Shown: positions 2,155-25,554 of the stretch, piece after piece
Numbering within the stretch: position 1 is the first letter of the stretch
How the letters are laid out: the number at the start of each line of letters is the position of its first letter
NCBI GenBank assembly: GCA_002361655.1
Contig: DETM01000021.1
Location: 30,659-58,239, forward strand
Direction of reading: 5' to 3'
Length of the DNA: 27,581 nt
Source of the DNA: Prevotella sp. UBA3288
Lineage (GTDB): Bacteria > Bacteroidota > Bacteroidia > Bacteroidales > Bacteroidaceae
Program-made: the position numbers and the translations under genes
Notes under the pieces: generated by a model
What the model was told of the DNA's origin: nothing
The model's database searches: none
What the model saw: the letters and a program-made list of their open reading frames with translations, nothing else

Positions 2155-2228
2155 TGTCGACACTTGGATTCGAACCAAGGACCCCCACCATGTCAAGGTG
2201 ATACTCTAACCAACTGAGCTATGCCGAC
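2155..2228 (-). tRNA. tRNA-Val (anticodon GAC)
   Basis: On the minus strand a 74-nt cloverleaf is visible. The acceptor stem GTCGGCA pairs with TGTCGAC (one G-T pair), with an A discriminator. The D arm is of the form GCTCAGTTGGTTAGAG. The anticodon stem has loop TTGACAT, giving GAC (valine). The T arm is CTTGG-TTCGAAT-CCAAG. CCA is not encoded. The region ACCTTGACATGGTGGGGGTC resembles the E. coli tRNA-Val(GAC) anticodon arm. Confidence 0.93.
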
Positions 2229-2325: not shown

Positions 2326-3477
2326 ATGAAAAGAAACCATCTGTTGATGCCATTGTTTATGGTTATGGCGATATTGACAACGGCCTGTGGAGGACGAGTG
2401 AAAAGTGTTGACGAAGTGAGGCAGGGCGTGAGCGACACGCTGAAATATGCCAAGGGCTTTACGGTGCGGACACTGGACGACGGCGTGCGGCTGGTTGACG
2501 TGGCCGACCCCCAGACCGACGAAGACCGGATGCCGGTGGACTACCACTTTGCGCTGGTGCCGAAGGGGAGCCGGGGCGAGGTGCCGCAGGGCTATCAGCG
2601 GGTGGAGGTGCCTGTGGAGCGTACCATTGTGATGACTATGCTGCAGCTGTCGAACTTCACGGCTCTCGGTGCTCACGATGTGGTGCGAGGCATCACCGGC
2701 ACGAAGAATCTCTTTAATGAGGACATCCGTCGGCGGGTGGCTGACGGTCGTATGGTGAAGATTGGTATGGAGGGCAACTTCGACACCGAACTGATATTGG
2801 CGGCCCAGCCGGAGGTGATCTTTATCTCGCCCTTCAAACGTGGCGGCTATGATGCCATCAAGGAGACCGGCATCACGCTCATTCCCCATCTGGGCTACAA
2901 GGAACTGACACCCCTCGGCCAGGCAGAGTGGGTGAAGTTTGTGGGCCTGTTCATCGGAAAGGAGCGTGAGGCTGACTCGCTGTTTGCTGCCATCGAGACA
3001 CGTTATAACAGCCTGAAGGCGCTTGTGGCCGACCTGGATGAGGCGAGCCGTCCGACGGTGTTCAGCGGTGAGATGCATGGCGGCAACTGGTATGCCGTCG
3101 GTGGTAAGAACTCGCTGGCCCAGATTTTCCGTGATGCCGGAGCCAGATATGTCATCGACAATGATGATACCGGCGGCGTGAATATCGAGTTCGAACAGAT
3201 GTACGCCGCTGCTGCCGATGCCGACTACTGGCGTATCCTGAACAGTTTCGAAGGCGACTTCTCCTATGAGGCCCTGAAGGCGAGTGAGCCGCGCAACGAA
3301 CTCTTTAGGGCATTCCGCGAACATAAGGTCATCTACTGCAATATGAAGCAGACACCCTATTATGAGAAGTCGCCCATGATGCCCGACGTCCTCCTGTCCG
3401 ACCTGGTGGCCATCTTCCATCCCGACGTGCTGGGCGCTGACTATCAACCGACGTTTTATCATCTTCTAGTGCCCTGA
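2326..3477 (+). CDS. btuF: BtuF-like ABC transporter substrate-binding lipoprotein
   Basis: The 383-aa product starts with a lipoprotein signal (MKRNHLLMPL onward, lipobox LTTAC, Cys at 21). The mature part has the layout of the class III metal-chelate/B12 binding proteins. PVERTIVMTMLQLSNFTALGA begins the first lobe, EVIFISPF lies mid-protein, and SGEMHGGNWYAVGGKNSLAQIF begins the second lobe. It should bind a corrinoid in the periplasm and deliver it to the permease encoded 25 bp downstream. The ATG at 2326 is preceded by a -7 box. Placement beside the cobalamin operon favours corrinoid over ferric siderophore, but the family covers both, so the substrate is inferred. Confidence 0.85.
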   Translation: MKRNHLLMPLFMVMAILTTACGGRVKSVDEVRQGVSDTLKYAKGFTVRTLDDGVRLVDVADPQTDEDRMPVDYHFALVPKGSRGEVPQGYQRVEVPVERTIVMTMLQLSNFTALGAHDVVRGITGTKNLFNEDIRRRVADGRMVKIGMEGNFDTELILAAQPEVIFISPFKRGGYDAIKETGITLIPHLGYKELTPLGQAEWVKFVGLFIGKEREADSLFAAIETRYNSLKALVADLDEASRPTVFSGEMHGGNWYAVGGKNSLAQIFRDAGARYVIDNDDTGGVNIEFEQMYAAAADADYWRILNSFEGDFSYEALKASEPRNELFRAFREHKVIYCNMKQTPYYEKSPMMPDVLLSDLVAIFHPDVLGADYQPTFYHLLVP

Positions 3478-4534: not shown

Positions 4535-6395
4535 GTTCGCCGTGAGGCAGGAGTGGTTGGCAGTGGCGCAGGCAGTGGCGTATGACGACACGGGCGAAAT
4601 CGCTGGCTTCTTCTTTCGGCAGTCTTTCCCAGAGTTCGCGGGCAAGGGTTAATGGCGCGTTCTTGTTTGGACCGTCGTCCCTTTGCGACGGGTTGACAAG
4701 GGTGCATGAAGCATGGGCTTCGTCGAGCATCTGTTGTATGAATGCCAGGTTCATCGTTCCTTTCTTGCTGTGTGTGTCGAGTTGTCCCTCGGCCAGTTTG
4801 ACGGCTTTGCCCAGCATGACTCCCAGTGTGACCTTCGTAAAACCTAGTTCATCGGCCATGCGGAGCGTCTCTCCGATATAGTTGCCGTATTCTACGAATG
4901 CCTGTTGGGGCAGGGTGGGGTAGAGTGCTTTGACAAAGCGCTCGCTCTTGGCACCGCTGTTGATGACCACGCGGTCGGACCCACTGGCCTTTGCCACCTC
5001 CATACATTTGCGGATACTCTGGATGAAGGCCTCTTCGGAGAAGGGCTTCACGATGCCTGAGACACCGATGATCGAGATGCCGCCCTCGATGCCCAAACGG
5101 GGGTTGAAGGTTCGGTGGGCGATCTCGGCTCCGCCGGGGGCGGAAATCTTAATTATAAGTGAAGAGGGCAGAGTAAAGAGTGAAAAACTCCTTGCGTCCC
5201 TTTGGTGGCAAGCGAGCAAAACTCGATCGGCTACCGCCATCAGGTTATGACGTATCATCTCGCGGGGTCCTTTGTTGATGGCAGGCTCGCCGGGAGGATA
5301 GTCGAAACCGGGCAGTGTGAAACGGCCGATGCCCTCTCCCGCTTCGATGGTTACCCACTCGCCTGCTTTTGGGAGGTGTTGGGGGCCTTTCTCTCCCTTT
5401 GGGGTGATACGGGGGCGGGCTTTTTCTTTTGTGGTGAGGGCACGGGGGTGAGCCTCTGCCCTGATCTCCAACCCATTCGTCACGTCAGGGTCGTCGCCGC
5501 TTTCCTTGATGCAGTAGGCATAGCGGTCAGCGTAACCGACGGGCACACTGATGGTTTCGCCGTTGGGGAGGATGACGGGCACTTCCGGCCACATCTCGCC
5601 GGTCAGCAGACGTTTTGTGGCAGCGATGGCTGCTGCCGTGGCACAGGTGCCGGTGGTCAGTCCGCTGTGCAGAGGGAAGAACCCGGGCAGAAGTCGTTCC
5701 ACCATACGTCGCAAGCCATAAGGTCCGTCGACGTTATGGTCGAACGCCAGTGCCGGCCTTTTCAGTACGATGATGCGCATACCCTTTTCTCTGGCTGCCG
5801 TCACCTTCTCGTTGAAGCCCCCCGAACGGCCGCTCTCTTTCATCAGGATGGCATCGGCCTCGACATCGATGGCCGTCCCGTCTTCGTAGAAGCACAGTTG
5901 GTCGTCTGTGGCTCCTTGTTTGTGGGCCAGCAGGATACTGCTTTTGCGGTTCAGTATCCGATAGACGATTCTGACGCCCTGCTGTTCCAGGTATTTCAGC
6001 CGTCCGATACTCTGCACGCCCGTTGTGGCCAGCAGTGTATGGATGTCTGTCGGCACCTCGCCGTAGTCGTCAATCCATTCGATCGACGGGTCGCGGGGCG
6101 GATAGATGCGTTCGTAGCGGACGGCGGGTATCAGTAGTGCCGCCGCCGTTTGGACGATGGTCTGATGGAGCAGTGTGGCAAAGGGGTGGGCGGCATCGAC
6201 GATGAGACGGATGGCGTGCTCACGGCAGAACCCTATCATCGCCTCGCGGTCCATCGCTCCGTCGGTGCGCTGTCCGTGGTGCAAGGCGACGACCTGTTCG
6301 CCCGTCTTGGTGGAATAGTAGAATGGGGTGCCGGCCTCTTCCAGCACCTCTGCCGCCCGGCGGCCTTCCGTTGTTCCTCCGAATACGAGTATCAT
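4464..6395 (-). CDS. cbiJD: Fused CbiJ-CbiD: precorrin-6A reductase and cobalt-precorrin-5B C1-methyltransferase
   Basis: A 643-aa fusion. Residues 1 to about 238 are CbiJ/CobK (MILVFGGTTEGRRAA, then VDAAHPFA near 66-73), which reduces the corrin macrocycle. From about 240 the CbiD methyltransferase begins with the signature GLTTGTCATAAAIAA (245-259), followed by GEPAINKGPR and FNPRLGIEGGISIIG. The ATG overlaps the cbiGF stop by 4 bp, so translation is probably coupled. Two stretches look inserted relative to CbiD as I remember it: about 320-345 (TPKGEKGPQ) and about 393-415 (HQRDARSFSLFTLPSS, AT-rich DNA unlike its neighbours). The 3' end overlaps btuC convergently. It is the last gene of the operon. 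Confidence 0.93.
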   Translation of the reverse strand: MILVFGGTTEGRRAAEVLEEAGTPFYYSTKTGEQVVALHHGQRTDGAMDREAMIGFCREHAIRLIVDAAHPFATLLHQTIVQTAAALLIPAVRYERIYPPRDPSIEWIDDYGEVPTDIHTLLATTGVQSIGRLKYLEQQGVRIVYRILNRKSSILLAHKQGATDDQLCFYEDGTAIDVEADAILMKESGRSGGFNEKVTAAREKGMRIIVLKRPALAFDHNVDGPYGLRRMVERLLPGFFPLHSGLTTGTCATAAAIAATKRLLTGEMWPEVPVILPNGETISVPVGYADRYAYCIKESGDDPDVTNGLEIRAEAHPRALTTKEKARPRITPKGEKGPQHLPKAGEWVTIEAGEGIGRFTLPGFDYPPGEPAINKGPREMIRHNLMAVADRVLLACHQRDARSFSLFTLPSSLIIKISAPGGAEIAHRTFNPRLGIEGGISIIGVSGIVKPFSEEAFIQSIRKCMEVAKASGSDRVVINSGAKSERFVKALYPTLPQQAFVEYGNYIGETLRMADELGFTKVTLGVMLGKAVKLAEGQLDTHSKKGTMNLAFIQQMLDEAHASCTLVNPSQRDDGPNKNAPLTLARELWERLPKEEASDFARVVIRHCLRHCQPLLPHGELTLLLIADDGTIHSLSPEHQPVL

Positions 6396-8167
6396 GCTTC
6401 GCCTTGACGGAACAGATGGGTGAAGTACTTGTTGTAGAGTTCGGAGAGCCCCTGGCGGTTGTCGATAGCCTTGCCGATGACCAGCATCGTGGTCAGCGTC
6501 AGGTTGTTGTCGTGCACGATCTTGGCGAGGTCTTTCAGGACACCGCGGTAGATCTTCTGGTCGGGCCAGGTGAGATGGTAGCAGGCGGCGACCGGTGTGT
6601 CTTCAGGATATTCCTCTAGCAGTTCGCGCTGTACGTTGTCGACGACGGTGGCTGAGAGGAAGATACACATCGTACTCTGCGACCGGGCCAACAGGTGCAG
6701 TTGCTCTTTCTTTGGCATCGGTGTCCGTCCCCCGTCACGGGTCAGGATGATGGTTTGGGTGTTTCCTGGGATGGTGAACTGGCTGCGCAACTCGGCGGCA
6801 GCGGCCAGGAACGACGATATGCCCGGGGTGATATGATACGACATCCCTTCGCGGTCGAAGAATGCCATCTGCTCCTGTATGGCCCCGAAGATGCAGGGGT
6901 CGCCGGTATGCAGTCGAACGATGAAATGTCCCTTGTCGTAGTGCTCCTTCATCAGTTGGCATTGCTCTTCGAGTGCCATACCGGCCGACGAGCGCACCAC
7001 GGCTCCTGGCTTATGGCATGCCGTCAGCGCCTTGGGCACCAGTGAGCCGGCATAGAGGATCAGGTCGGCCCGTTCGAGCATCTTCCGGCCGCGGACGCTG
7101 ACCAAGTCGGGAGCGCCGGGGCCTGCACCCACAATCTCGATGTGGCCTTGGTGCCGGCGCAGGTACCGGCGGTTGATGGCCAGGGCTGCCGTCCAGTTCT
7201 TACCTTTAATCTTGGGAACAATGAGTTGTCCGTGGTCGGACCCCAAGATGGCCGCCGCCTCGCAGACACTTGGCGTGCCGACATGTCGGGCGACAGTCTC
7301 GCTGGGATTGGGCACGTCGACGGCAGCCAGTTCTTCGGCACTGTAGAAGATGACCTCTTCACCGTTGTTTCGGAGTGTCGAACAGAACGGCTCGTCTTTC
7401 TTGACATCGATGGTGCAGAAACGGCGGGAGCATGGCAGAAAGCCCAGTTTGCAAAATTCCGAATCAATCTCATCAAGGATTGTCTCATAGTTGCACGGAT
7501 AGTGAGCCAGCCCGAAGCCGATGGCGGCCACCATGGGTACGAAGTGGAGTTCCAGCATACCGCTGGGTGCCTGTCGGTTGTAGGGAGAGACGATGATAAG
7601 GAGGTCGTACTTTTTAGGGTCGGCCTCTCTGATGTCGTCGATGATGGTGACATGGTCGGGCTTGGTGGCCTCCAGGTAGTCGGTGCCCCGGTCGCGGATT
7701 TCCAGCAGCAGTGCCGTAGGTTGGCGGTTGACGAAGGCAAAGATGCAATTGTTTATGTTCCTGTCGTCGCTGGCTATGGACCAGTCGAAACGCTTGCTCA
7801 GCAGGTCGAGTGCCCATAGTCCGGCATTATCGCTCTGTGTGGTGATGACGGCTTTGGCTCCCGTGAAGTCTGCGATGTCGGCTGTCAGTTCGTTGGCACC
7901 GCCGACGTGACCGGAGAGCACGGCGACGACGTGTTGTCCCAGCGTGTCCATACACACCACGGCGGGGTCGGTGTGCTTGTCCTCGATATACGGGGCGATG
8001 GTGCGGACGCAGATGCCCATGGCTCCAATGAAGACGAAGGCATCGTAGTGATACCACTGCCGGCCTACTTCGGCACGTTTGATGATAGAGGCTTTGAACT
8101 TCTTCTGCAGCGTGCTGGCAATGTTGTTGCCGGCCTTGCTGATTTGTATGATGGCTATCTTCTGCAT
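6392..8167 (-). CDS. cbiGF: Fused CbiG-CbiF: cobalt-precorrin-5A hydrolase and cobalt-precorrin-4 C11-methyltransferase
   Basis: A 591-aa fusion. The N-terminal CbiG part carries GAMGICVRTIAPYIEDK and LSGHVGGANELT. It opens the lactone ring and releases C20 as acetaldehyde. From about residue 341 the CbiF part begins with IEIVGAGPGAPDLVSVRGRK, followed by YAGSLVP and a tetrapyrrole methyltransferase core with HTGDPCIFGAIQEQ. It methylates C11 with SAM. The frame stays open upstream of 8167, but the ATG at 8167 is chosen because MQKIAIIQISKAG is the natural CbiG start and the extension overlaps cbiET more deeply. The start overlaps the cbiET end by 13 bp and the stop overlaps cbiJD by 4 bp. 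Confidence 0.93.
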   Translation of the reverse strand: MQKIAIIQISKAGNNIASTLQKKFKASIIKRAEVGRQWYHYDAFVFIGAMGICVRTIAPYIEDKHTDPAVVCMDTLGQHVVAVLSGHVGGANELTADIADFTGAKAVITTQSDNAGLWALDLLSKRFDWSIASDDRNINNCIFAFVNRQPTALLLEIRDRGTDYLEATKPDHVTIIDDIREADPKKYDLLIIVSPYNRQAPSGMLELHFVPMVAAIGFGLAHYPCNYETILDEIDSEFCKLGFLPCSRRFCTIDVKKDEPFCSTLRNNGEEVIFYSAEELAAVDVPNPSETVARHVGTPSVCEAAAILGSDHGQLIVPKIKGKNWTAALAINRRYLRRHQGHIEIVGAGPGAPDLVSVRGRKMLERADLILYAGSLVPKALTACHKPGAVVRSSAGMALEEQCQLMKEHYDKGHFIVRLHTGDPCIFGAIQEQMAFFDREGMSYHITPGISSFLAAAAELRSQFTIPGNTQTIILTRDGGRTPMPKKEQLHLLARSQSTMCIFLSATVVDNVQRELLEEYPEDTPVAACYHLTWPDQKIYRGVLKDLAKIVHDNNLTLTTMLVIGKAIDNRQGLSELYNKYFTHLFRQGEA

Positions 8168-9393
8168 TTGAGAATGGTGATGGGGTGATAATCGTTCAGT
8201 TGGATGCTGGTGGGCGCATCCTGTCGCAGACCGAGGTCGGCACAGGCTTCGTCCCACAGTCGGTGGCTGTCTCTGCTGACTTTAGGTGCTATGACGCTGT
8301 TCATGACGATGATGCCGTCGGGGGTCAGGTAGCGGAGCACCTTCTCCATGATGGCTTTCAGTTGACCGCCGTGGCCGCCGATGAATACAGCATCGGGACG
8401 TCTCGCCTCCGGCACCTCTCCCGTAGGGAGGGGAGCCGTCAGGAAGTCGCCGATATGGAGATTGATGCCGGGGGCACCGTGGCGACGGCAGTTCTCCCGG
8501 ATGATGGCCTCGCATTCAGGGCGAACCTCGAAGGCTTCAATCTGGAGATGCGGGAACAGCAGACGGGCCTCGATGCTGACGCTGCCGGTACAGGCACCGA
8601 TGTCCCAGAGCATATGGCGGCAAGGCAGGTCGAGGGCCTGCAGGGTCAGCAGTCGGATGGGCATCTTGGTAATCATCTTCTCGCGGCCGTCGAGGAGCGT
8701 GAACGTGGCATCGGGCAGACCGAAGGGTGTTATGCCAACCCCGACTCCCTCGCTATGGTGAAGGGGGATGGTCAGAATCACACAGTTGGGCATGGCAAAG
8801 GTGCGATGTGATGCCTCTTCGAGCGTGATGGTGGTGATGCGTTCCTTCTGAGGGTTGCCCAGATGTTCACCGATGTGCATCAGGTAGTGGCTGTAGCCGT
8901 AGTCGAGCATCCGCAGGGCGATGGTCTGTGGTGTGTGCTCATGGTCGGTGAGCACGCCAATCTTTGTTTCCCGTTCTATGAGTGCACGGTCGAATGCCTG
9001 CCAGGGTCGGCCCGTCAGCGAGACGATGCGCATATCGTGATAGGGCATTATGAGACGATGGGCCAGCATCTGCAGGGAGTTGAAGACCGGATAGACTTCC
9101 ACCCCGGCCTCGGGCATTTTCCGTTTGATGGTATTGGCGAAACCGAAGAAGAGCGGGTCTCCGCTGGCGAAGATGATGATAGATGTATGGTCGAACCGAC
9201 GGTATTGCTCGAAGACGGCATCGAGGGGAACGGTGATGTCTATCCATACGGCATCGGCTGGCAACAGCGGGGCAACGATCTCATGGTGGCGACGGCCGCC
9301 GGAGAATACCGTGCCGTGGCTGATGACCTCCGATACTTCCGGCGGGAAGTAAGGATGGGGGTTGTCGGTGATTCCGATGACGATAAACCTCAT
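8155..9393 (-). CDS. cbiET: Fused CbiE-CbiT (CobL-type): cobalt-precorrin-7 C5-methyltransferase and C15-methyltransferase (decarboxylating)
   Basis: A 412-aa fusion that methylates C5 and C15 and decarboxylates the ring C acetate. The CbiE part is residues 1 to about 205 (IIIFASGDPLFFGFA, RPWQAFDRALIE). CbiT starts near 230 with GREKMITKMPIRL and carries SAM motif I WDIGACTGSVSIEA near 264, then DAVFIGGHGG. Two stretches look inserted: HHSEGVGVG at about 209-219, between the domains, and PLPTGEVPEARRP at about 319-331, before the conserved DAVFIGGHGG. Both are encoded by G/C-run dyad DNA. The start overlaps the cbiHC stop by 4 bp. Confidence 0.93.
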   Translation of the reverse strand: MRFIVIGITDNPHPYFPPEVSEVISHGTVFSGGRRHHEIVAPLLPADAVWIDITVPLDAVFEQYRRFDHTSIIIFASGDPLFFGFANTIKRKMPEAGVEVYPVFNSLQMLAHRLIMPYHDMRIVSLTGRPWQAFDRALIERETKIGVLTDHEHTPQTIALRMLDYGYSHYLMHIGEHLGNPQKERITTITLEEASHRTFAMPNCVILTIPLHHSEGVGVGITPFGLPDATFTLLDGREKMITKMPIRLLTLQALDLPCRHMLWDIGACTGSVSIEARLLFPHLQIEAFEVRPECEAIIRENCRRHGAPGINLHIGDFLTAPLPTGEVPEARRPDAVFIGGHGGQLKAIMEKVLRYLTPDGIIVMNSVIAPKVSRDSHRLWDEACADLGLRQDAPTSIQLNDYHPITILKCRR

Positions 9394-10838
9394 AAGTCGC
9401 GGCCGGGCTTTAGTTGTTCGGCATCATCGAAGGTCAGGATGGCATTGCACAGCGTGGCAGCGAGATTGCTGCCGCCCTTGCGACCCTCGACAATGATTTT
9501 TGGAATGTCGCGGAACGGCTTCACCATGTGCTTCGACTCACGGACATGGACGAAGCCCACCGGTGCGGCTATGATGCCTGCCGGCTTGGCCTTGCCTTGG
9601 CGTATCAGGTCGCACAGTTCCATCAGGGCTGTCGGCGCATTGCCGAAGGCGAAGAGCGCATCGGGATGGTCTTCAACGGCCAGTCGGATGCCGGCCTGTG
9701 TTCGGGTGAGTCCTGTCCCTTGGTCCTCCCGAGAGGCGTGTTGATTGATGAGTTCCGGTATGCGAGGGTCGTTGAGGTAGCATTTGGCTTCGATGCCCAG
9801 TCGCTGCAGGGCTCCCTTGCGAATACCACTGGTCACCATCGTCACGTCGGTCACGATAGTCTTCACCTCGCACGCGCGAACCTTATTATATATAGTCTCT
9901 ACGGCTCCCGGGTCAGTATAGAGAATCTGCTCCATGTCGAAGTCGGCGGTGGTGTGGATGGCATGTAGCAGGGCCCATTTATGGTCGAGCGGATAGTCTT
10001 GCCGCTTCAGTTCGGAGGCAATGGTACGGAACGACTCTGTCATGATCGATCTTCCGACACCCTCCGACGAAGGGGCTTCCTGCCGGTAGTAGCCGCGCGG
10101 CGTGACAAACTTGCCGTCGGTCATATACGACTGGGAGTTGCCTATCAATACAACGGTGAACATATCGATGTCTTCCGGGTCGAGGGCACCGAGGGTTGTC
10201 AGTGTGACCTTTTGGTCAGGGCGCCCTGCTTGTCGCACATAGCCTACCGGCGTGTCGGCCCCCCGTTCTTGTAAGAAGAGTTCCTGCAGGCGGTAGAGTT
10301 GCCAGTAGCGGCCGTGCGACTTGGGGTTGTAGACGGCCGTGACGAAGTCGCCGGTGGCGGCAGCGCGGATGCGCCGTTCGATGACCTCCCATGGTGTCAT
10401 CAGATCGGAAAGCGAAATGATGCAGAAGTCGTGACCGATAGGGGCTCCCAACAGCGATGCCGCTTTCTGGAAGGCGGAAATGCCGGGAAGAACGATGATC
10501 TCGATGTCGGAGCCATCGGTTGCCGACTTCGAGTCGGCGCGTTCGCGCTGCATCTCGTAGAGCAGGGGCGCCATGCCGTAGATGCCGGCATCGCCACTCG
10601 ATACGACCACAACCGTCTGGCCTGTCTCTGCCAGTTGGAAAGCCTGCTCGGCGCGTTCGCGTTCCCGTTTCATCCCGGTGTCGACACATTGGCACGCCGG
10701 TTTGACATAAGGCTCCACGAACCGGAAATAGTATTTATAGCCCACCACCACATCGGCTTCCTTGAGGGCATCGATGACGGCAGGCGTCATGTCTTCGGGG
10801 CTTCCGGGCCCCAGTCCTGCAATGATAATCTTCTTCAT
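9390..10838 (-). CDS. cbiHC: Fused CbiH-CbiC: precorrin-3B/cobalt-factor C17-methyltransferase and precorrin-8X methylmutase
   Basis: A 482-aa fusion. CbiH (about 1-250) begins IIIAGLGPGSPEDMTP and has SSGDAGIYGMAPLLYE. It performs C17 methylation with ring contraction. CbiC (about 265-482) carries HAIHTTADF, VTDVTMVTSGIRKGAL and FAFGNAPTALMEL. It moves a methyl group from C11 to C12. A TTG at 10850 is in frame, but the ATG at 10838 is preferred because it overlaps the cbiB stop as ATGA. PSSEGVGRS at about 254-262 lies exactly between the domains and resembles inserts in neighbouring genes. NQHASREDQGTG near 363-374 may be another. Confidence 0.93.
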   Translation of the reverse strand: MKKIIIAGLGPGSPEDMTPAVIDALKEADVVVGYKYYFRFVEPYVKPACQCVDTGMKRERERAEQAFQLAETGQTVVVVSSGDAGIYGMAPLLYEMQRERADSKSATDGSDIEIIVLPGISAFQKAASLLGAPIGHDFCIISLSDLMTPWEVIERRIRAAATGDFVTAVYNPKSHGRYWQLYRLQELFLQERGADTPVGYVRQAGRPDQKVTLTTLGALDPEDIDMFTVVLIGNSQSYMTDGKFVTPRGYYRQEAPSSEGVGRSIMTESFRTIASELKRQDYPLDHKWALLHAIHTTADFDMEQILYTDPGAVETIYNKVRACEVKTIVTDVTMVTSGIRKGALQRLGIEAKCYLNDPRIPELINQHASREDQGTGLTRTQAGIRLAVEDHPDALFAFGNAPTALMELCDLIRQGKAKPAGIIAAPVGFVHVRESKHMVKPFRDIPKIIVEGRKGGSNLAATLCNAILTFDDAEQLKPGRDL

Positions 10839-11884
10839 ATCCGGATGCAAAGATAAACAAATAAATCGAAACCGACAAGCAAAAGGGCTGTCAGGATGAC
10901 CATTGCTGCCTCGGCCCGTCGGTTCACACGGATAGCCGTTTGCATGTCGGCGGTGTTCAGCGGCCGGTCGTTATCGCCGATAAACGGTTTGTTGAACAGT
11001 TCTCCGAAATAATAGTGCGGTCCGCCGAAGCGACAGTTGAGAATGGCGGCCAGGGCTGCCTCGGGGTAGCCACTGTTGGGGCTGGCATGGCAACGGCCGT
11101 AGCGACGGAGGAAGGCAAGTCTCCCCCCAAAGCCTCCCCGGAGGTGAGGGGTACTACCTCGACTGTCCAGAGTGGAGGAGGCGGGAGCGACGATGAGCAT
11201 GAGCAGGGCGGTGAGGCGGGCGGGGATGTAGTTGGCCACATCGTCGATGTGGGCGGCCCAGCAGCCGAAGTCGCGGTAGCGGTCGGTGCGGTAGCCAATC
11301 ATCGAGTCGAGGGTGTTCACCATTTTATAAGCCACCATGCCGGGGATGCCCAGCATGGCGAGCCAGAACAGCGGGGCAATGACGCCGTCGCTCAGATTTT
11401 CGGCCAGCGTCTCCAAGGCCGCAGTGCGCACCTCCTGTGCCGAGAGTGCTGAGGTGTCGCGCCCTACGATGCGGGCCACCTGTCGCCGTCCTTCGTCCAG
11501 GGAACGGTCTACGGCCAGGAATACCTGTCGCACTTCGCGGATGAGGGTGGTGCCGGCCAGACAGTAGAAGATGAGGAGGGAACCCACCGGAAGGGTGGTC
11601 AGAATGGGCAGCACCGGCATCTCCCCAAGGGGAAAGCCCGCCACCCCGAGAGAGGGAAGTTGAAGGAGTAGGTATAAGAGAGCGTAGGTGGAGATGTAGG
11701 CGAGGGTGATGAGGGCGACAGCCGTCAGTGCCCCCTTCGCCTTTCTGTGATTCCCTTTGTTGAGATGACGCTCGCAGAAGGCGATGGCGCGTCCGAACCA
11801 CACCACGGGGTGGGGCATACGGGCCGGGTCGCCGAAGCAGAGATCGAGCAGCCAGCCGATGAGCAGCGACGTGGCATTAATCAT
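10835..11884 (-). CDS. cbiB: CbiB/CobD-type adenosylcobinamide-phosphate synthase
   Basis: A 349-aa inner-membrane protein that joins adenosylcobyric acid to aminopropanol phosphate, which a CobD-like enzyme encoded at 19608 could supply. Family marks: LLIGWLLDLCFGDPARMPHPVVWFG at the N-terminus, NLSDGVIAPLFW, MVNTLDSMIGYR and HASPNSGYPEAA. The ATG at 11884 is chosen over an in-frame GTG at 11890. It overlaps the cbiP stop by 8 bp. Two loops look expanded by repeat-like DNA: LPSLGVAGFPLGEMP at about 74-89 and SSTLDSRGSTPHLRGGFGGR at about 235-255. The second lies just before the conserved HASPNSG motif. Confidence 0.93.
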   Translation of the reverse strand: MINATSLLIGWLLDLCFGDPARMPHPVVWFGRAIAFCERHLNKGNHRKAKGALTAVALITLAYISTYALLYLLLQLPSLGVAGFPLGEMPVLPILTTLPVGSLLIFYCLAGTTLIREVRQVFLAVDRSLDEGRRQVARIVGRDTSALSAQEVRTAALETLAENLSDGVIAPLFWLAMLGIPGMVAYKMVNTLDSMIGYRTDRYRDFGCWAAHIDDVANYIPARLTALLMLIVAPASSTLDSRGSTPHLRGGFGGRLAFLRRYGRCHASPNSGYPEAALAAILNCRFGGPHYYFGELFNKPFIGDNDRPLNTADMQTAIRVNRRAEAAMVILTALLLVGFDLFVYLCIRI

Positions 11885-13349
11885 CGGCACTCATGATTTG
11901 GTAGAGACGGTCGATGTCCACATGCTGACGGACATGGGCAGCCAGACGGTCGTATTGCTCCTCCTTGAAGTCGGCGTAACTCTGCATCGGCGCGTGGCTG
12001 TCGGCCTTGCCGGCCAAGAGGTGACCGACGACGGGGGCGTTGTCCAGAAAACCATGGATGTAGGTGCCTATACAGCGGTCGCCCTGCATGATGGCCTGGT
12101 CTGTATCGCTGACGCCCTGGTGTATCTCATAGCCCCGGCAGGTCTGTCCCGCGAATTGGAACGTCACTTGTCGGGTGGTCTTCGTGGGGGTGATGGTGGT
12201 ATGGATGGGCAACAGTCCCAGTCCGGGCAGGGTGCTGATGTTGCCTTCGAGACCGTCGGGGTCGCTTACCGTCAGGCCCAGCATCTGGTAGCCGCCACAG
12301 ATGCCGACCACCATTCGGCCGTCGCGATGAGCCTGCAGGATGGCCTGTGCACAACCGTTGCGGCGCAGTTCGAGCAGATCGTCTAAGGTGGCTTTCGTGC
12401 CAGGCAGGATGATGATGTCGGCCCGTAGGATGTCGGAGGTGTTGTTGGTATAGAAGAGGTTGACCTGAGGGTCGCGTTCCAGTCTGTCGAAGTCGGTGAA
12501 GTTGCTGATATGTCTCAGGAGTACCACGGCGATGTTCACCTTCCCCTCGGCCCATTGCCGTCGCTTCTGTTCGAGGCTGACGCTATCCTCCTCCTCGATG
12601 TGGATGTCCCTCATATAGGGCACCACGCCCAGCACGGGCACGCCGCAGATGTCCTCCAGCATACGGCGCCCGTCGTCGAAGAGGCGCAGGTCGCCTCGGA
12701 ACTTATTGACGATGATACCCCGGATGAGCCGCCGGTCTTCTTCCTGTTGCAGGGCGATGCTGCCGTAGACGGAGGCGAAGACCCCGCCGCGGTCGATGTC
12801 GCCCACGAGTATCACCTTGGCCCCGGCATGACGTGCCATGGGCAGGTTGACCAGATCGTGGTGGCGCAGGTTGATCTCGGCAATGCTGCCGGCACCCTCC
12901 ATCACAATGGGGTTGTAGCGGGCGGCCAGTCGGTCGAAGGCATCGCAGACTGCCTGACGGAAGTCGAAACGCCCCCCCAACCCCTCCGTGGTGGGGGGGA
13001 TGTCTTCCCTCGGGGAGCGAGGGGCTCTCCAGAAGTCGTAGGCATCGCGGTTGCCAATGGGTCGTCCGTTGAGCACCACCTGGCTGGTGTGGTCGCTCTG
13101 GGGTTTCAGCAGCAGCGGGTTCATGTCCGTATGGCAGGGAATGCCGGCTGCCTCGGCCTGCACGGCCTGTGCACGACCTATCTCCAGGCCCTCGGGGGTG
13201 GCGTAGGAGTTGAGGGCCATGTTCTGTGCCTTGAAGGGTGCCGGCTGGTAGCCGTCCTGTCTGAAGATACGACAGAGGGCCGTCGCCAAGACACTCTTGC
13301 CGACGTCGCTGCCTGTACCGGCCAGCATGACAGGTGATAGTCGTTTCAT
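11877..13349 (-). CDS. cbiP: Adenosylcobyric acid synthase (CbiP/CobQ)
   Basis: A 490-aa glutamine-dependent amidotransferase that amidates four side chains of adenosylcobyrinic acid a,c-diamide. The ATP-binding synthetase domain starts MLAGTGSDVGKSVLATALCR and has KAQNMALNSY and EGAGSIAEINLR. The C-terminal class I glutaminase domain shows the nucleophile Cys in VGICGGYQMLG and the late HGFLDN. Residues about 109-129 (APRSPREDIPPTTEGLGGRF) interrupt the region between DAYDFWR and the DFRQAVCDAF helix. They look like an insert compared with CobQ proteins as I remember them; the encoding DNA has long C and G runs. The start overlaps the cbiA stop by 4 bp. Confidence 0.95.
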   Translation of the reverse strand: MKRLSPVMLAGTGSDVGKSVLATALCRIFRQDGYQPAPFKAQNMALNSYATPEGLEIGRAQAVQAEAAGIPCHTDMNPLLLKPQSDHTSQVVLNGRPIGNRDAYDFWRAPRSPREDIPPTTEGLGGRFDFRQAVCDAFDRLAARYNPIVMEGAGSIAEINLRHHDLVNLPMARHAGAKVILVGDIDRGGVFASVYGSIALQQEEDRRLIRGIIVNKFRGDLRLFDDGRRMLEDICGVPVLGVVPYMRDIHIEEEDSVSLEQKRRQWAEGKVNIAVVLLRHISNFTDFDRLERDPQVNLFYTNNTSDILRADIIILPGTKATLDDLLELRRNGCAQAILQAHRDGRMVVGICGGYQMLGLTVSDPDGLEGNISTLPGLGLLPIHTTITPTKTTRQVTFQFAGQTCRGYEIHQGVSDTDQAIMQGDRCIGTYIHGFLDNAPVVGHLLAGKADSHAPMQSYADFKEEQYDRLAAHVRQHVDIDRLYQIMSADD

Positions 13350-14620
13350 AGGCGATAGAGGTGTGTGTAACTTGCTAAAACATTTTTATATTTGAACACC
13401 GGCGTGCCGACAGGCGCGCCTTTGGCATCGTAGACCTGGCAGGCTGACGGGGGCACAGTGCCGACGAACTGTGTGTAGTGGAACTCATGGCCACGATATT
13501 CCCGGCCGTCGAGCACAAAACGGCGATAGCCCAGCGACAGCCGGCGGTCGGCCCGGCGGGCAGAGATGACGTAGGGCAGCACGCCGCACATCGGATATTC
13601 GCCCATTTCCGCTGTCTCACCTGCCGACAGACTTTCGTCGGTGACAATCTTTTCACAGAGATACATCATGCCGCCACATTCGGCCACGATATGTCCGCCC
13701 CGCTCGGCATAGTCTTTGATGCTCCGGCGTGTATGCTCTGCTCTGGCCAGCGCCTCTAAGTGCTTCTCCGGATAGCCGCCCGGCAGATAGAGCAGGTCAA
13801 TGTCATCGGGGATGGGAGCGTCTTCTTCGGGGTCGAAGAAACGGGGCTTGTCAAAGCAGTCGATGGTCTCTTGATAGAGAAAGGAGAAAGCCTCGTCGTT
13901 GCGGGCTACCAGCACACCGGGAGTTGGGACGGTGCACACCGGGAGTCGGGATGGTGCACACTCCGAGTTTAGACGGAGCAAACCCTCGCAATCGACGTGG
14001 GCTTCCAACAGCCGGACCAGTTCGTCGCTGGCTGTTTCTTCCGAGAAGTCAAGACCCAGATAGCGTGAGCCAGTCTCCAGACTCTGTTGTCGGGGCAGGT
14101 AGCCAAAGCAGGTCAGATGGAGGTCGTCGCACACCTGACGGAGCATCTGCACATGACGTTCCGAGCCCACCTTATTATATATAACGCCGGCGATACGGAC
14201 ATCAGGCCGGAAGTTGGCGAAACCCTGCAGAAGGGGAGCCATCGAGTAGGCGGCACTCTTCGCGTCGACCACCAGCACGACGGGCAGTCCCAGCACGCCG
14301 GCTATCTCTGCCGATGAGCCACGGTCGCGGTCGTAACCGTCGAACAGTCCCATCATCCCTTCGACGATACACACGTCGGCCGTCTGGCCATAGTGGGCAA
14401 AGAGGGTCTGTACATGGTCTGCCGATGCCATGAATGTGTCGAGGTTGACGCTGGGCCGCTGGCATACCGACTCGTGGAATTTCGTGTCGATATAGTCGGG
14501 ACCGCACTTGAAGGGCTGTACACTGTAGCCCTTCTTAGCCAGAAGAGCCATCAGTCCTCTGGCAACGGTCGTCTTGCCCGCTCCGCTCGAAGGTGCTGCT
14601 ATCATGAATTGTGCTTTCAT
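13346..14620 (-). CDS. cbiA: Cobyrinic acid a,c-diamide synthase (CbiA/CobB)
   Basis: A 424-aa glutamine amidotransferase acting on the a and c acetate side chains of cobyrinic acid. The P-loop domain begins MKAQFMIAAPSSGAGKTT, with KCGPDYID and VEGMMGLFDG following. The glutaminase domain has the nucleophile Cys in VAECGGMMYL (near residue 312) and the late HEFHYTQF. The frame is open upstream, but the ATG at 14620 fits the family start and lies directly after a possible -7 box. Residues about 217-236 (SECAPSRLPVCTVPTPG) come from a 22-bp tandem repeat in the linker between the domains. It lies 29 bp after cbiL and overlaps cbiP by 4 bp. Confidence 0.95.
   Translation of the reverse strand: MKAQFMIAAPSSGAGKTTVARGLMALLAKKGYSVQPFKCGPDYIDTKFHESVCQRPSVNLDTFMASADHVQTLFAHYGQTADVCIVEGMMGLFDGYDRDRGSSAEIAGVLGLPVVLVVDAKSAAYSMAPLLQGFANFRPDVRIAGVIYNKVGSERHVQMLRQVCDDLHLTCFGYLPRQQSLETGSRYLGLDFSEETASDELVRLLEAHVDCEGLLRLNSECAPSRLPVCTVPTPGVLVARNDEAFSFLYQETIDCFDKPRFFDPEEDAPIPDDIDLLYLPGGYPEKHLEALARAEHTRRSIKDYAERGGHIVAECGGMMYLCEKIVTDESLSAGETAEMGEYPMCGVLPYVISARRADRRLSLGYRRFVLDGREYRGHEFHYTQFVGTVPPSACQVYDAKGAPVGTPVFKYKNVLASYTHLYRL
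13912..13970. repeat. 22-bp tandem repeat inside cbiA
   Basis: Units at 13912-13933 and 13934-13955 differ at only two positions (GCACACCGGGAGTTGGGACG versus GCACACCGGGAGTCGGGATG). A degenerate partial third unit runs to about 13970. The 22-bp period is not a multiple of three, so each unit is read in a different frame, but three periods (66 bp) restore the frame. Confidence 0.9.
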
Positions 14621-16652: not shown

Positions 16653-18806
16653 TTATTGTAAAAAGAGTCTGAACTTCGCAAATAGTGAGCGACCGGGCTT
16701 CTGGAGTTTGTAGTTGTCGTAGACGGTCTGGTCCAGCAGATTCTGGCAGTCCAGCGAGATGCTGTAGCGATGGTTCTGCCACGAATAGGTCACGTTGGCA
16801 CCCAGCAGGTGCTTCTCCGGTATGCGGGCCTTGGTCTCCGGCAGTCCGTAGGCTTCCCAGGAGAGGTAGAACCAGTGCACCCATTGGTAGTCCATGCCCA
16901 CCGTCAACTTGTCGCCTTTTGACAGCAGGTCGGCAAAGGAATAGTGGGCCTCTGCTGAGGCGAAGAGCCACGGCCGGTTGGGCACATGGTTCTGATAGGT
17001 GACCGACGGTTTGCCATCGTCTTTGTAGCGATTGTTGTCGCGGGCATCTTGCCAACTCATGTTTGCCACCACCTGCAGCCGCTTGTCCCAGTCGTAGCGC
17101 ACTTCGCCTTCCAGTCCTTTGATTCGCACGGCCGGTTCGTTGACATACTGAAGATAACCTTCGTCGTCGGAAATTTGCGGTTGGATGTAGTTGTTGACAT
17201 GTCGCAGAAAGCCGTTCGCCTCGTAGTATATGGTATGGAGTCCGGTCTGGAAGGTGCCAAAGAGCCCTATGTTCAGGTTGTCGCTTTCTTCGGGCTTCAA
17301 CGCTGTGTTGGCATAGATGGTGGTGCCGTTGCCCAGCAGTTCACGGGCCAACGGCAGACGCACGCTGTGTTCGTAACTGCCTTTGACGGCCAGCGACGGC
17401 ATGAGTTCGAATCTGGTGCCAAGTCCGCCGCCGATGCTGTTCTGTGTGCTGGTGCCTGCCGACTTTTGCGACCCGGTGATGAAGTACAGGTCGCTCTGCC
17501 TGATCTTCAGATGGTTTACATAGTCTTTCAGAAAGAACGTGTTGTACATACGTCCCTCAAGGAGCGACTGGTTATAGGCCAATCCGATGATGTGCTTGGC
17601 AAACAGGTCGTTGGCCGGCTGGAAGGTTTGGTCAGTATCGTCCCAGCGGTCGTTGCCGGTACGGTTGAGCGCATAACTGAGGTTGAGCATATGTTGCTCA
17701 GAGAAACTGTAGTTCAGGTCTGCCCTGAGCAGCGTGAGCGGACGTTTGTAGTGGCGACGGGAGAAGGCTCGCCCGTTCAACTCGTTGCGCTGGCTCTTTA
17801 TCCACTCGCCGTCCCAGTTGTATTTACGCTGGGCGGTATCGGTTGTGATGGCATGGTCCCAGGTGTGCGATAGCGACAGACTGGCATCAAGATGTTGCGT
17901 CAGGAAATTCTTTTTCTGATAGCGCAGCCCGACACTCCAGGCCTTGCTCTGACGGTCGGCCATGCCGATGACGTGATTCTGGACCTGACTGGTCTGCAGA
18001 TCTTTATTTACCTTATTATATGATAGGGTGACAAAAAACTCGTCTGCCCACCACTTGTCAGAGACACCCGCCTCCAACTGGCCCAGCAGCGAGAAGTAGT
18101 CGTCGTGGAAACGCTGCCGCTCACTGGGCAGATATCTGCCTGCTTCCTCGTTCCATACCTCAACGTCTTTCATCCGATAGTCGTTCTTGGAGTAACTGAT
18201 ACCCAACGACGGACGGATGGTGAGGCCGTTTTTGAAGATATACTGTCCGCTGACATCGCCTTGATGGGTATGGAAAGAGCCGATGCCGTAAGAGACGTCC
18301 AGATAGTTCTGCTTCTTGCGCTGTGTCACAATGTTGACGGCACCGCCCAGCACATCGCTATTCAGCCATGTCGGCACAACACCTTTGTAGATTTCTATAT
18401 GGTCTATCATGCTGATGGGCAGGTTGGCAAGCGTGATGCCTGACCCCTTCGCATCGAGCGGTATGCCGTCCATGAAATAGCGTACGGAACTGCCCGACAT
18501 CCCATTGATGCTCAGTTCGAAGTCGGAACCCAACCCACCGTCTTCACGGATCTTCACACCTGTCGTACGGTCAATCAGCCCGCTGAGCGAATGGATGGAA
18601 CCAGCGACGGACTGTATGTCGATGGCATTGACGGCCAGGGCCCCTTCGCGCAGTCGCTGGGTCTTGCTCTTTCCCGTGATGGTCACATTGTCAAGAGCCA
18701 CAGAATCGCGCATCTGGCTCTTCTTTGACTCTTGTGCATCAGCCCAAGACGTGGTCCCAAACCACATGGTGAGGACCGTCATCCACACAATAGCGTTTCT
18801 TTTCAT
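16653..18806 (-). CDS. btuB: TonB-dependent outer-membrane receptor, BtuB-like
   Basis: A 717-aa outer-membrane receptor, directly downstream of a cobalamin riboswitch, so corrinoid is the likely cargo. A signal peptide ends near residue 24 (SWADA). A TonB-box-like ALDNVTITGK follows at about 37. The plug domain is roughly 45-160 (GVKIREDGGLGSDFELSING, MIDHIEIYKGVVPTWLNSD, GGAVNIVT). A 22-strand barrel should fill the rest and ends in a typical aromatic C-terminus (KFRLFLQ). No N-terminal carboxypeptidase-like domain is present, unlike SusC-type receptors. Energy would come from TonB and ExbB/ExbD; an ExbBD set lies at 23493-25554. The downstream lipoprotein gene is 19 bp away and probably co-translated. 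Confidence 0.9.
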   Translation of the reverse strand: MKRNAIVWMTVLTMWFGTTSWADAQESKKSQMRDSVALDNVTITGKSKTQRLREGALAVNAIDIQSVAGSIHSLSGLIDRTTGVKIREDGGLGSDFELSINGMSGSSVRYFMDGIPLDAKGSGITLANLPISMIDHIEIYKGVVPTWLNSDVLGGAVNIVTQRKKQNYLDVSYGIGSFHTHQGDVSGQYIFKNGLTIRPSLGISYSKNDYRMKDVEVWNEEAGRYLPSERQRFHDDYFSLLGQLEAGVSDKWWADEFFVTLSYNKVNKDLQTSQVQNHVIGMADRQSKAWSVGLRYQKKNFLTQHLDASLSLSHTWDHAITTDTAQRKYNWDGEWIKSQRNELNGRAFSRRHYKRPLTLLRADLNYSFSEQHMLNLSYALNRTGNDRWDDTDQTFQPANDLFAKHIIGLAYNQSLLEGRMYNTFFLKDYVNHLKIRQSDLYFITGSQKSAGTSTQNSIGGGLGTRFELMPSLAVKGSYEHSVRLPLARELLGNGTTIYANTALKPEESDNLNIGLFGTFQTGLHTIYYEANGFLRHVNNYIQPQISDDEGYLQYVNEPAVRIKGLEGEVRYDWDKRLQVVANMSWQDARDNNRYKDDGKPSVTYQNHVPNRPWLFASAEAHYSFADLLSKGDKLTVGMDYQWVHWFYLSWEAYGLPETKARIPEKHLLGANVTYSWQNHRYSISLDCQNLLDQTVYDNYKLQKPGRSLFAKFRLFLQ

Positions 18807-18849: not shown

Positions 18850-19030
18850 CGTTGTCGTGCCTGACATGGCAGGTTTCCTGACTTCCTCCGAAAAGTCCGC
18901 CTTCCCAAGCATGGCTCAGTGGCTTCTTATGATGGACTTCTCATAATGGAGGTCACAGTAGCGGGCACTGTCCAGGACTCTCACCTGATTCCCTCTCTTC
19001 AGCGGTGAATGACCGCCAAATCACCAAATC
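18850..19030 (-). ncRNA. Cobalamin riboswitch in the btuB leader
   Basis: The minus strand carries the adenosylcobalamin aptamer core: GGGAATCAGGTGAGAGTCCT, then GGACAGTGCCCGCTACTGTGA, the B12-box-like AAGCCACTGAG, and GGAGGAAGTCAGGAAACCTG near the 3' side. It begins at the expected start of the promoter at 19036 and ends about 45 nt before the btuB ATG. I see no U-tract terminator between aptamer and gene, so control of translation initiation is more likely than attenuation. It should repress btuB and, by read-through and coupled translation, the biosynthetic genes when B12 is plentiful. The exact ends are approximate. Confidence 0.93.
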
Positions 19031-19035
19031 GGGTG

Positions 19036-19043
19036 CAAAGGTA
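19036..19043 (-). promoter_or_regulatory. -7 promoter box for the riboswitch/btuB operon
   Basis: The minus strand reads TACCTTTG, an exact TAnnTTTG match, a few bases before the first base of the aptamer. No perfect TTTG lies 19-20 nt upstream; the region there is T-rich. Confidence 0.7.
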
Positions 19044-21145: not shown

Positions 21146-21205
21146 CGCTGCAAAAGTACACAAAAATCCCGAAACGCCAAAGCATTTCGGGATTTATTTT
21201 TGATT
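21146..21205 (-). promoter_or_regulatory. 60-bp promoter/hairpin module, copy 1
   Basis: Read on the minus strand, TTTG (21178-21181), 19 nt and TACTTTTG (21151-21158) form a full Bacteroidetes promoter facing the candidate RNA. The -33 box lies in the loop of a hairpin, CCCGAAA...TTTCGGG, at about 21169-21192. The hairpin has T-rich flanks on both sides, so it could also terminate transcription. The 60 bp are identical to 23066-23125. Confidence 0.8.
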
Positions 21206-23065: not shown

Positions 23066-23125
23066 CGCTGCAAAAGTACACAAAAATCCCGAAACGCCAA
23101 AGCATTTCGGGATTTATTTTTGATT
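23066..23125 (-). promoter_or_regulatory. 60-bp promoter/hairpin module, copy 2 (drives the Rpn-like gene)
   Basis: Identical over 60 bp to 21146-21205 and in the same orientation, 1920 bp away. TTTG and TACTTTTG (23071-23078) with 19 nt between them face the Rpn-like gene, whose ATG lies 28 bp beyond the -7 box. The embedded CCCGAAA/TTTCGGG hairpin could also terminate transcription arriving from either side. Confidence 0.85.
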
Positions 23126-23151
23126 CTAATGCCTTGAAGGGGCTATAATCC

Positions 23152-23235
23152 CGTTTGGAGGCTTCTGGCATCCCGTTTGGAGGCTTCAAACGCCTCGTTT
23201 GGAGGCTTCAAACGGTGCGTTTGGAGGCTTCAAAC
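23152..23235. repeat. Four-unit array with exact 22-bp period
   Basis: CGTTTGGAGGCTTC begins at 23152, 23174, 23196 and 23218, exactly 22 bp apart. In units 2-4 the core extends to CGTTTGGAGGCTTCAAAC, an imperfect palindrome with GTTTG/CAAAC ends. The spacers differ. The layout suits repeated protein sites on one face of the helix, but its role is unknown. Confidence 0.9.
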
Positions 23236-25072: not shown

Positions 25073-25554
25073 AGTTGCAGCGTGGCATGTTCCGCCGCAG
25101 GGAGCACCCGTTGCCGAGTCTCAACACCTCGTCGCTGCCCGACCTGATTTTCACGGTGCTCTTCTTCTTTATGATTGTCACCCACATGAGGGATGTCGAA
25201 CTGAAGGTGCACTATGTGGTGCCGCAGGGTACTGAACTGCAAAAGATGACGCCCAAGTCGGCTGTCACTCATATATATATAGGTAGGGTAGAAGGACTGC
25301 CGGCCGACAGTTTCTGCATTCAACTGAACAACCGGCTGGCCACGGTAGGCGACATCCGCGAGTTTGTAGAGACGGAGCGGGCCCGGATGGCAGACGACGA
25401 CCAGGCGCGGATGCTGGTCAGCATCAAGGCCGACCGCGACGTGCCTTATGGTCTGATAGCCCGGGTGAAGCAGGCGCTGCAACAGTCGTTCGCCCTGAAG
25501 ATCAGTTACTCGGCTACGGGGACTGAGAATGGAGAATCGAGAATTGAGAATTGA
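25069..25554 (+). CDS. exbD: ExbD/TolR-family protein (second copy)
   Basis: A 161-aa second ExbD-type protein with one N-terminal helix (SSLPDLIFTVLFFFMIVTHM), keeping the membrane Asp. The periplasmic part ends with a strand-rich region (MLVSIKADRDVPYGLIARVK) like the usual ExbD fold. The chosen GTG overlaps the previous stop (GTGA), with AAAGGAGG upstream acting as a rare clear Shine-Dalgarno sequence. An ATG at 25087 is the alternative. The last dozen residues (TGTENGESRIEN) are encoded by the start of a GAGAATTGA repeat, so the natural stop has probably been replaced. Confidence 0.88.
   Translation: MKLQRGMFRRREHPLPSLNTSSLPDLIFTVLFFFMIVTHMRDVELKVHYVVPQGTELQKMTPKSAVTHIYIGRVEGLPADSFCIQLNNRLATVGDIREFVETERARMADDDQARMLVSIKADRDVPYGLIARVKQALQQSFALKISYSATGTENGESRIEN

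Follow-up and report, generated by a model that had tools for sequence, protein, structure and literature searches.

Small dispersed palindromic elements as probable in-frame inserts in cobalamin enzymes and unrelated proteins of a Prevotella-type genus

The cobalamin operon of Prevotella sp. UBA3288 raises the question of why several consecutive, unrelated enzymes carry short in-frame stretches with runs of C and G. The window, the whole stretch of 27,581 nucleotides analyzed here (GCA_002361655.1, contig DETM01000021.1, positions 30,659 to 58,239), belongs to an assembly of 2.14 Mb in 66 contigs with a completeness of 68.6%. It carries on its minus strand the genes cbiL, cbiA, cbiP, cbiB, cbiHC, cbiET, cbiGF, and cbiJD, of which the last six (cbiP to cbiJD) were identified in the analysis and the other two are those that we take to be cbiA and cbiL. 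A preliminary description had proposed that seven sites in five of these genes are dyads of one related repeat, tolerated by proteins and comparable to the Rickettsia palindromic elements (RPEs). The observation of inserts is partly confirmed here and its interpretation is partly supported, in that the core idea holds and the detail is partly right. The inserts probably represent copies of small palindromic elements that have colonized this Prevotella-type genus, where they are dispersed in the genomes and protein linkers tolerate them. These elements belong to at least three families: E1 (39 nt), E3 (30 nt), which is the structural sibling of E1, and E2, the C/G-run dyad family of the preliminary description.

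The length of each named site, together with 14 residues on either side, was compared with that in relatives. CbiB is present in 112 of the 249 genus genomes searched, which are mostly incomplete; operon DNA was taken from 60 of these 112, and the encoded proteins were aligned after removal of open reading frames shorter than 60% of the query (56 relatives for CbiP, 60 for CbiB, 20 for CbiHC, 19 for CbiET, and 21 for CbiJD). Four sites are insertions by this measure: cbiP (50 residues, usually 36), cbiB 11120-11180 (49, usually 32), cbiB 11618-11662 (43, usually 27), and cbiJD (46, compared with 19-24 in 19 of the 21 relatives, the remaining two having 27 and 29). The cbiET sites are longer by just 5-6 residues each, with 43 residues at 8400 against 38-41 in relatives (38 in 15 of 19) and 43 at 8730 against 34-43 in 18 of 19 relatives and 59 in one. 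No insertion is seen in cbiHC, where the 43 residues compare with 42-44 in 15 of 20 relatives and 46-56 in the other five. Among the aligned relatives, the residues of the four true inserts were not found in distant homologues, and the alignments agree with the earlier statement that the stretches never fall within conserved motifs. For the true inserts, the picture of protein-tolerated repeats in the linkers of several consecutive unrelated enzymes was right. That several of the named sites are instead ordinary variable linkers, with nothing inserted, is an evenly balanced proposition: the usual length of cbiHC, the small gains in cbiET, and the lack of significant folds agree with it, whereas it fails for cbiP, both cbiB sites, and cbiJD. 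The DNA-fold z-scores of the seven sites relative to shuffles range from −1.35 to +1.12, none significant, contrary to the assertion that all are dyads. The z-score of the E1 copy in the window is −1.58, likewise not significant, and dyad strength was rejected as evidence of insertion at the named sites and at E1.

The loops of CbiB illustrate how such sites vary. The window protein has 351 residues; among the 120 relatives listed (this set, like those for UDP-glucose dehydrogenase and a TolC-like protein, comprises the best 120 of 8000 hits), many are shorter, with a minimum of 302, and some are longer, and those named by organism come from metagenome-assembled genomes of Prevotella sp. The variation sits in the two named loops, which in relatives hold other repeat-like peptides, among them SPPKLGGVRGGL, FIPLLSRRGADRRGG, LFTFHFSLFTF, QLSIINCQLSI, and PLGRAGVGF; some loops were mis-anchored, so they were read by eye. 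In the predicted structure of CbiB (mean predicted local distance difference test score of 66), both inserts would lie mostly in coil. Because unrelated repeats repeatedly occupy the same loops in other species, we read the cbiP linker and both CbiB loops as insertion hot spots and not as sites of one inherited insert.

The E1 family was first seen through the recurrence of window positions 5191-5229 in a 400-kb sample of the same genome with which the window was compared; this copy and an adjoining 7-mer-like stretch, both in cbiJD, are absent from the preliminary description. The source genome holds seven E1 copies by a search pattern designed partly from the window copy (reversed pattern, 0), and 72 of 200 genus genomes carry the element in up to 32 copies (reversed-pattern controls, 0). 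A stricter 39-letter pattern was found in 0 of 294 other genomes of the order; since the genus is not represented in this sample and the family by just three further genomes, the boundary so drawn is coarse. The E1 and E3 copies examined in genus genomes, here and below, are those among the matches listed. Among 86 distinct E1 copies, the length is 39 nt in 69 of the 76 with a recognizable end (the ten without one are left out of this count), and 82 of the 86 are preceded by TT, with a free right flank. The element consists of CTTGC-12 nt-GCAAG, then CGASC-AGA-GSTCG, and then AGCG, so that both stems have 5 bp and the loops measure 12 and 3 nt. In the 41 distinct 39-nt sequences that remain after removal of identical copies and copies of other length, 97.3% of stem cells are paired, and the covariation score lies above all 500 shuffles, which ignore kinship, and above every slid structure. 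The window copy has CTC at its left flank in place of the usual TT and GATCG for GAGCG in its tail; it is recognized by R1, a covariance model built without it (Table 1). In the own-genome sample, R1 gives four further good matches, two of which (in locus L127 and at 18503 of L123) belong to the model-building set and two of which lie outside it (L123 2514-2543, E 1.1e-5; L128 9040-9069, E 4.8e-5), these spanning 30 nt. The relative order of E1 and the 7-mer stretch in cbiJD recurs at L144 and L157.

E1 is not limited to cobalamin enzymes and occurs in frame in unrelated proteins. Open frames of at least 200 residues contain 33 of the 86 copies (40 frames, some by chance), and 17 of the 20 host frames submitted to Pfam have a match. 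The hosts include a SpoIIE-type phosphatase (two copies), the small chain of carbamoyl-phosphate synthase, UDP-glucose dehydrogenase, a polyprenyl synthetase, RsmF, a SpoU methylase, GH127, a PD-(D/E)XK protein, a two-domain ABC ATPase (two copies) that is presumably ABC-F, and a TolC-like outer membrane protein of the source genome. Five of the six relative frames are seen in Pfam-matched hosts; the consensus is stop-free in five of six frames, and the sixth is stop-free in GGTGG variants. A length of 39 nt, or 13 codons, is found in all 32 open-frame copies with a recognized end and in 37 of 44 copies elsewhere. This length thus seems to belong to the element itself, and the exceptions occur only outside open frames of at least 200 residues.

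The corresponding proteins differ by exactly this amount. In UDP-glucose dehydrogenase, 9 of the best 120 of 8000 hits have 24 residues at the site and the other 111 have 11, exactly 13 fewer; the longer form reads ALNG-EDSTSGRLLPKGR-KKFNLLF or a close variant, and the insert-free form reads, for example, ALNGKKFNLLF. The CbiB of L064 contains 13 residues, RSTSGRLLPSGRK, that correspond to E1; P0109 lacks them but otherwise resembles it in this region. In the TolC-like protein, the source genome and its closest relatives have 52 residues, with E1 inside the 39-residue form, and the lengths in other relatives include 21 residues and 39 residues with 7-mer-type peptides (45 commonest loops from the best 120 hits; mis-anchored loops, as for UDP-glucose dehydrogenase, were read by eye). 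These exact differences between aligned proteins fit insertion without target duplication.

The sibling family, E3, was found through 30-nt differences between near relatives. In cbiA of L118 relative to that of L117, the extra 30 nt follow TT and consist of CTT-hairpin-AAG, a second hairpin, and AGCG; with flanks that are 77% alike, this match is not entirely clean. E1 and E3 have this plan in common (TT, CTT-hairpin-AAG, second hairpin, AGCG). A scan for the plan with the stem letters left free gives 75 places in 1.58 Mb and 0 in reversed DNA, with lengths of 39 nt (57 places), 30 nt (12), 38 nt (3), and also 37, 31, and 33 nt, in a sample that is E1-enriched because many loci were fetched for E1. 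With a pattern that leaves nine middle letters unspecified, E3 is found in 87 of 200 genus genomes, in up to 83 copies (genome G139), and controls give 0. Among 48 distinct variants of the middle, both outer positions are paired in 40 (in shuffles, 12 on average and at most 25), which suggests that E3 conserves shape rather than sequence. A further small element, E4 (CCCGCTGACGCGCCTACCCGTAGCC), was noted within 30-nt differences at different cbiJD sites of L078, L085, and L118, in both orientations and also after TT.

The E2 family is the one that contains an insert named at the outset. Across the fetched operons, seven operon proteins have 180 non-core stretches of at least 6 residues, and 29 pairs of stretches from different sites have at least one 14-mer in common; as this count lacks a matched control, the long matches and not their number carry weight. 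Examples of long matches are a stretch of ~33 bp that a single genome (L066) carries in both cbiP and cbiA, and one of ~29 bp that lies in opposite orientation at different cbiJD sites (L078 and L085 compared with L118). The E2 consensus is about GACCCACCCCCAACCCCTCCC-loop-GGGAGGGGAGT, with ends that are not established. The expectation that similar copies would occur elsewhere in the genome and genus was borne out, with 42 rows of E2-like DNA in the fetched DNA compared with 1 in the reversed control (at least two places are counted on both strands, and a few are chance-like). One alignment, A2, omits 10 of 34 places and has a misaligned right arm, so no model was made from it. The profile used is derived from 28 copies from other genomes, with own-genome loci and L076, L112, L183, L184, L189, and L198 left out, and was judged against 60 Markov-simulated windows (best score 23.2, 95% level 18.3). 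The cbiP site scores 32.4, above the best null score, and is a clear member. The scores of cbiET 8400 (19.3) and cbiB 11118 (18.1) lie near the 95% level and are no proof of membership, as a native cbiP stretch (13175-13217) reaches 19.6; cbiJD (15.4), cbiET 8733 (8.5), cbiHC (3.3), and cbiB 11636 (1.6) are not significant. The idea of a single related repeat at all seven sites was thus rejected, since only cbiP clearly passes. The motif CCCCAACCCCTCC was also rejected as a copy counter, with 66 occurrences at up to two mismatches in the genome compared with 60 in the reversed control.

The surroundings of E1 were analyzed for 74 of the 86 copies, 12 having been dropped for short, long, or undefined ends or flanks. 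Direct repeats of 7 bp flank 13 of the 74 (shuffled mean 0.7, maximum 3) and repeats of 10 bp flank 3 (shuffled mean 0.5, maximum 3). A 7-bp target duplication was rejected as a general rule, as these 13 copies alone show it, in flanks that are array-like by eye. E1 sits just behind the TT of short tandem arrays, and 7-mer arrays, which recur in the own-genome sample, are a common neighbor. In 4 of the 74, the flanks are perfectly inverted, as if E1 lay in the loop of another palindrome (in shuffles, 0.8 on average and at most 4), which is statistically weak. The cobalamin operon of G136 contains two copies of a composite made up of an E2-like palindrome, E3, and E1, one in cbiB and one upstream of cbiP, in the expected place of cbiA, and the stem differences between the two copies are paired. 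A DNA-level empty site for the cbiB composite was not found, because the relatives found differ across the whole loop and showed protein-level forms only. At this locus (L064 1393-4501), a 1036-residue open frame assigned to cbiP extends far upstream and is perhaps a cbiA-cbiP fusion or the result of a missing stop. Several E1 copies of G173 share one position within the GTAGGGGCAGGCC repeat (L184 and L190, with variants in L182, L186, and L187), and the same string is present in an inverted repeat beside a Y1 transposase gene of that genome (L229). Because E1 nests in the G136 composite and in the G173 repeat, some copies have probably spread as passengers of other repeats.

The broader proposal that E1 is in general a non-autonomous passenger, multiplied with larger repeats such as GTAG repeats moved by transposases that resemble REP-associated tyrosine transposases (RAYTs; REP, repetitive extragenic palindromic sequence), E2 palindromes, or tandem arrays, is rather doubtful. 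The nested copies in G136 and G173 favor it, as does the distribution of transposase genes. E1 is present in 29 of 41 genomes with long RAYT-like Y1 genes and in 43 of 159 others (Fisher p 4e-7), among the matches listed, with length classes sorted by hand on frame length, kinship ignored, and unclassed genomes counted as lacking the long class; with the unclassed genomes removed, the comparison is 29 of 41 with 27 of 124. Short IS200-like genes run opposite to E1 (odds ratio 0.35, p 0.02), and 14 genomes with at least 10 E1 copies fall outside the long-Y1 class. Against the proposal, E1 by itself accounts for exactly the 13 residues that separate, for example, the two forms of UDP-glucose dehydrogenase. 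Genomes rich in E1 also occur without a Y1 match (G139, G196, G157, and G101). Of 14 chosen genomes, 10 have a Y1 match. In L220, the long Y1 gene scores 61.9 with the NCBIfam REP-associated transposase model, below the cut-off of 80. Seven long Y1 loci were tried and the gene was located in four, of which two carry other palindromes. A Y1/RAYT transposase as the cognate enzyme is not supported by adjacency.

The hairpins of E1, the TT on one side, and the lack of a general duplication resemble single-strand transposition of the IS200/IS605 and REP kind. In the mechanism proposed here, the differences in presence and absence would be insertions, the element would move as a folded single strand, and an enzyme would cut and join it after TT. 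With exactly 13 (or 10) codons added per insertion, the reading frame would stay intact, and selection would retain copies in tolerant loops. More tentatively, with chances that we put clearly below even, E1 and E3 may represent a new minimal class of mobile DNA: pairs of hairpins of 30-39 nt that insert seamlessly after TT through an enzyme that reads shape and not sequence, can persist within coding DNA owing to their whole-codon length and near lack of stops, and parasitize the loops of other palindromes.

Several points weigh against small mobile elements as the source of the inserts. No enzyme is tied to E1: the source genome, at 68.6% completeness, gave no Y1 transposase match, E1 lies within 1.5 kb of just 1 of 18 Y1 loci in the 14 chosen genomes, and each of the RAYT-like Y1 genes of L220 and L221 has its own flanking palindromes (~66-79 nt). 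The differences in presence and absence could also be deletions, the direction of change being inferred, and the TT might be the element's own rather than the target's. The structural evidence is uneven, with two of five measures not extreme (pairs with changes on both sides were reached by 22 of 500 shuffles, and further pair types by 108 of 500); the covariation of E1 is that of the second stem, as the first hardly varies, and neither E1 nor the named sites fold significantly better than shuffles. The sameness of E1 copies is partly selected, since most of the first 23 nt are prescribed in the search patterns. The evidence for multiples of three comes from a small number of length classes (30, 33, and 39). 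In pairwise global operon alignments, which were used in place of gapped blastn (two indels of at least 12 nt in ten operon pairs, both 21 nt long and tandem-array-like), multiples of three account for only 134 of the 298 gaps of at least 9 nt, some gaps looking split. Finally, four of the seven named sites fit no family and two fit the E2 profile only at its border.

Two further explanations fare worse than the passenger proposal. It is improbable that the hairpins are selected functional parts of mRNAs or proteins, such as RNA processing or pausing sites, and not mobile DNA. The paired stem changes in E1 and E3 and the persistence of the hairpins in coding and intergenic copies alike would agree with such a role, whereas position, orientation, and frame vary (five of six relative frames in Pfam-matched hosts), the hosts are unrelated, and E1 is absent from 111 of the best 120 UDP-glucose dehydrogenases. 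Local replication slippage or hairpin-templated repair, with likeness arising by simple-sequence convergence, would suit the short tandem arrays, the pure C/G runs, and the named sites that fit no family or fit at the border, yet it is no less improbable, being disfavored for E1 and E3 by their dispersed copies and confronted with identical or near-identical 39-mers and ~29-33 bp stretches in unrelated genes and in both orientations.

RPEs comprise several palindromic families that lie in frame in many unrelated genes, where they are apparently tolerated. The likeness drawn to them by the preliminary description is right in effect, as E1 is inserted in frame in unrelated protein genes. Miniature inverted-repeat transposable elements differ in that E1 fails the test of terminal inverted repeats and target duplication, with flanking repeats only at 7 bp and proteins that differ by exactly 13 residues. 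With non-autonomous IS200/IS605 elements, E1 has in common its hairpins, fixed left flank, and lack of a general duplication; the Y1 enzyme, however, is neither consistently present nor adjacent. The short tandemly repeated repetitive heptanucleotide sequences and very small dispersed repeats of cyanobacteria also combine 7-bp arrays with tiny elements nested in repeats, but they belong to another phylum, and here much of the repeat DNA lies in coding loops. According to PMC10969869, RPEs are ~150 bp long, in contrast to the 39 nt of E1 and 30 nt of E3, which have two small hairpins and often lie beside or inside other repeats. PMC3733652 names RPE-4 and RPE-6 as CGTC repeats, describes intragenic REPs, lists CGTC repeats in Bacteroidetes, and gives GTAG and CGTC REPs as dispersed hairpins of 20-40 nt, some intragenic, with an end tag, a stem of 8-9 bp, and a loop of 4-5 in the CGTC type (Table 1 of that paper). 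By length and by stem-loops with paired changes, E1 and E3 fall within this description. E1, however, starts with CTTG and ends with AGCG, has no GTAG or CGTC end tag (CGTC is internal only, in CTTGCGTCCC), forms two 5-bp hairpins in place of one 8-9 bp stem, and lies near only 1 of 18 Y1 loci, unlike GTAG REPs with their RAYT proximity. E1 and E3 thus appear to work like REPs or RPEs yet fail some defining features, and because the REP tag, stem, and transposase and the RPE length of 150 bp are lacking, they are not filed under either. A literature search with few terms did not meet these repeats in Prevotella, although absence from print is not claimed; nor did this narrow search meet a double-hairpin plan kept by paired changes, a fixed whole-codon length, seamless insertion after TT, or such nesting.

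Table 1 Inserts, linkers, and repeat elements of the cobalamin operon (window positions)
Feature	Position	Strand	Remarks
E1 element, 39 nt, two hairpins, inside cbiJD	5191..5229	+	antisense in-frame peptide LLACHQRDARS; covariance model 53.1 bits, E 7.9e-11
7-mer-like stretch AAGTGAAGAGGGCAGAGTAAAGAGTGAAAA abutting E1	5155..5190	.	with E1, 21-residue non-core stretch of cbiJD (392-412)
E2 element (C-run/G-run dyad) in cbiP	12968..13001	+	linker ~14 residues above common form; profile 32.4, null maximum 23.2
cbiJD insert of the preliminary description	5364..5444	-	27 residues (318-344); C/G-rich, E2-like, not significant
cbiB insert	11135..11185	-	17 residues (236-252); E2-like at border of significance
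cbiB insert	11606..11653	-	16 residues (80-95); family not established
cbiET linker	8400..8438	+	~5 residues above common form; C/G dyad, E2-like borderline, fold not significant
cbiET linker	8734..8751	-	~6 residues above common form; family not established
cbiHC site	10047..10090	-	length as in 15/20 relatives (42-44 residues); not an insert
cbiJD non-core stretch, not in the preliminary description	4659..4697	-	13 residues (567-579), unclassified

Other repeats and features accompany those of Table 1. The window has an intergenic array of eight copies of the 7-mer TGAGAAT (25524-25580), identical 60-bp repeats at 21146-21205 and 23066-23125, of which a 26-bp part recurs inverted at 26614-26639, and a 22-bp spaced palindromic repeat, GTTTGGAGGCTTCAAAC, at 23148-23235 that is also found at L129 11577-11659 and elsewhere in the genome. 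The cbiA gene contains an imperfect 22-nt tandem repeat (13912-13968). In relatives, cbiA of L105 and L108 has an insert with the peptide GAGLVPAR, which we take to be a translated repeat of many other phyla, and CbiA of L100 has tandem FGRDTSH copies in a longer in-frame array. In an Rfam scan of the window, the gathering score was reached only by a cobalamin riboswitch and two tRNAs, with no match for the repeats. The riboswitch (RF00174, 88 bits; 18851-19043, minus strand) lies directly upstream of a presumably TonB-receptor-like gene (16653-18806) that is co-directional with the operon, and the tRNA genes (2052-2133 and 2155-2228, minus strand) adjoin a gene that is presumably BtuF-like (2326-3477).

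If the inserts are indeed copies of small dispersed palindromic elements, many species of the genus would carry a repeat whose copies extend a number of their proteins by exactly 10 or 13 residues with the frame intact. Such copies would constitute a set of naturally occurring insertion mutants of enzymes and would explain odd peptides of annotated Prevotella proteins. Two testable questions would follow, namely what moves repeats of a non-coding size and whether selfish DNA adapts its length and stop-free frames to genes.

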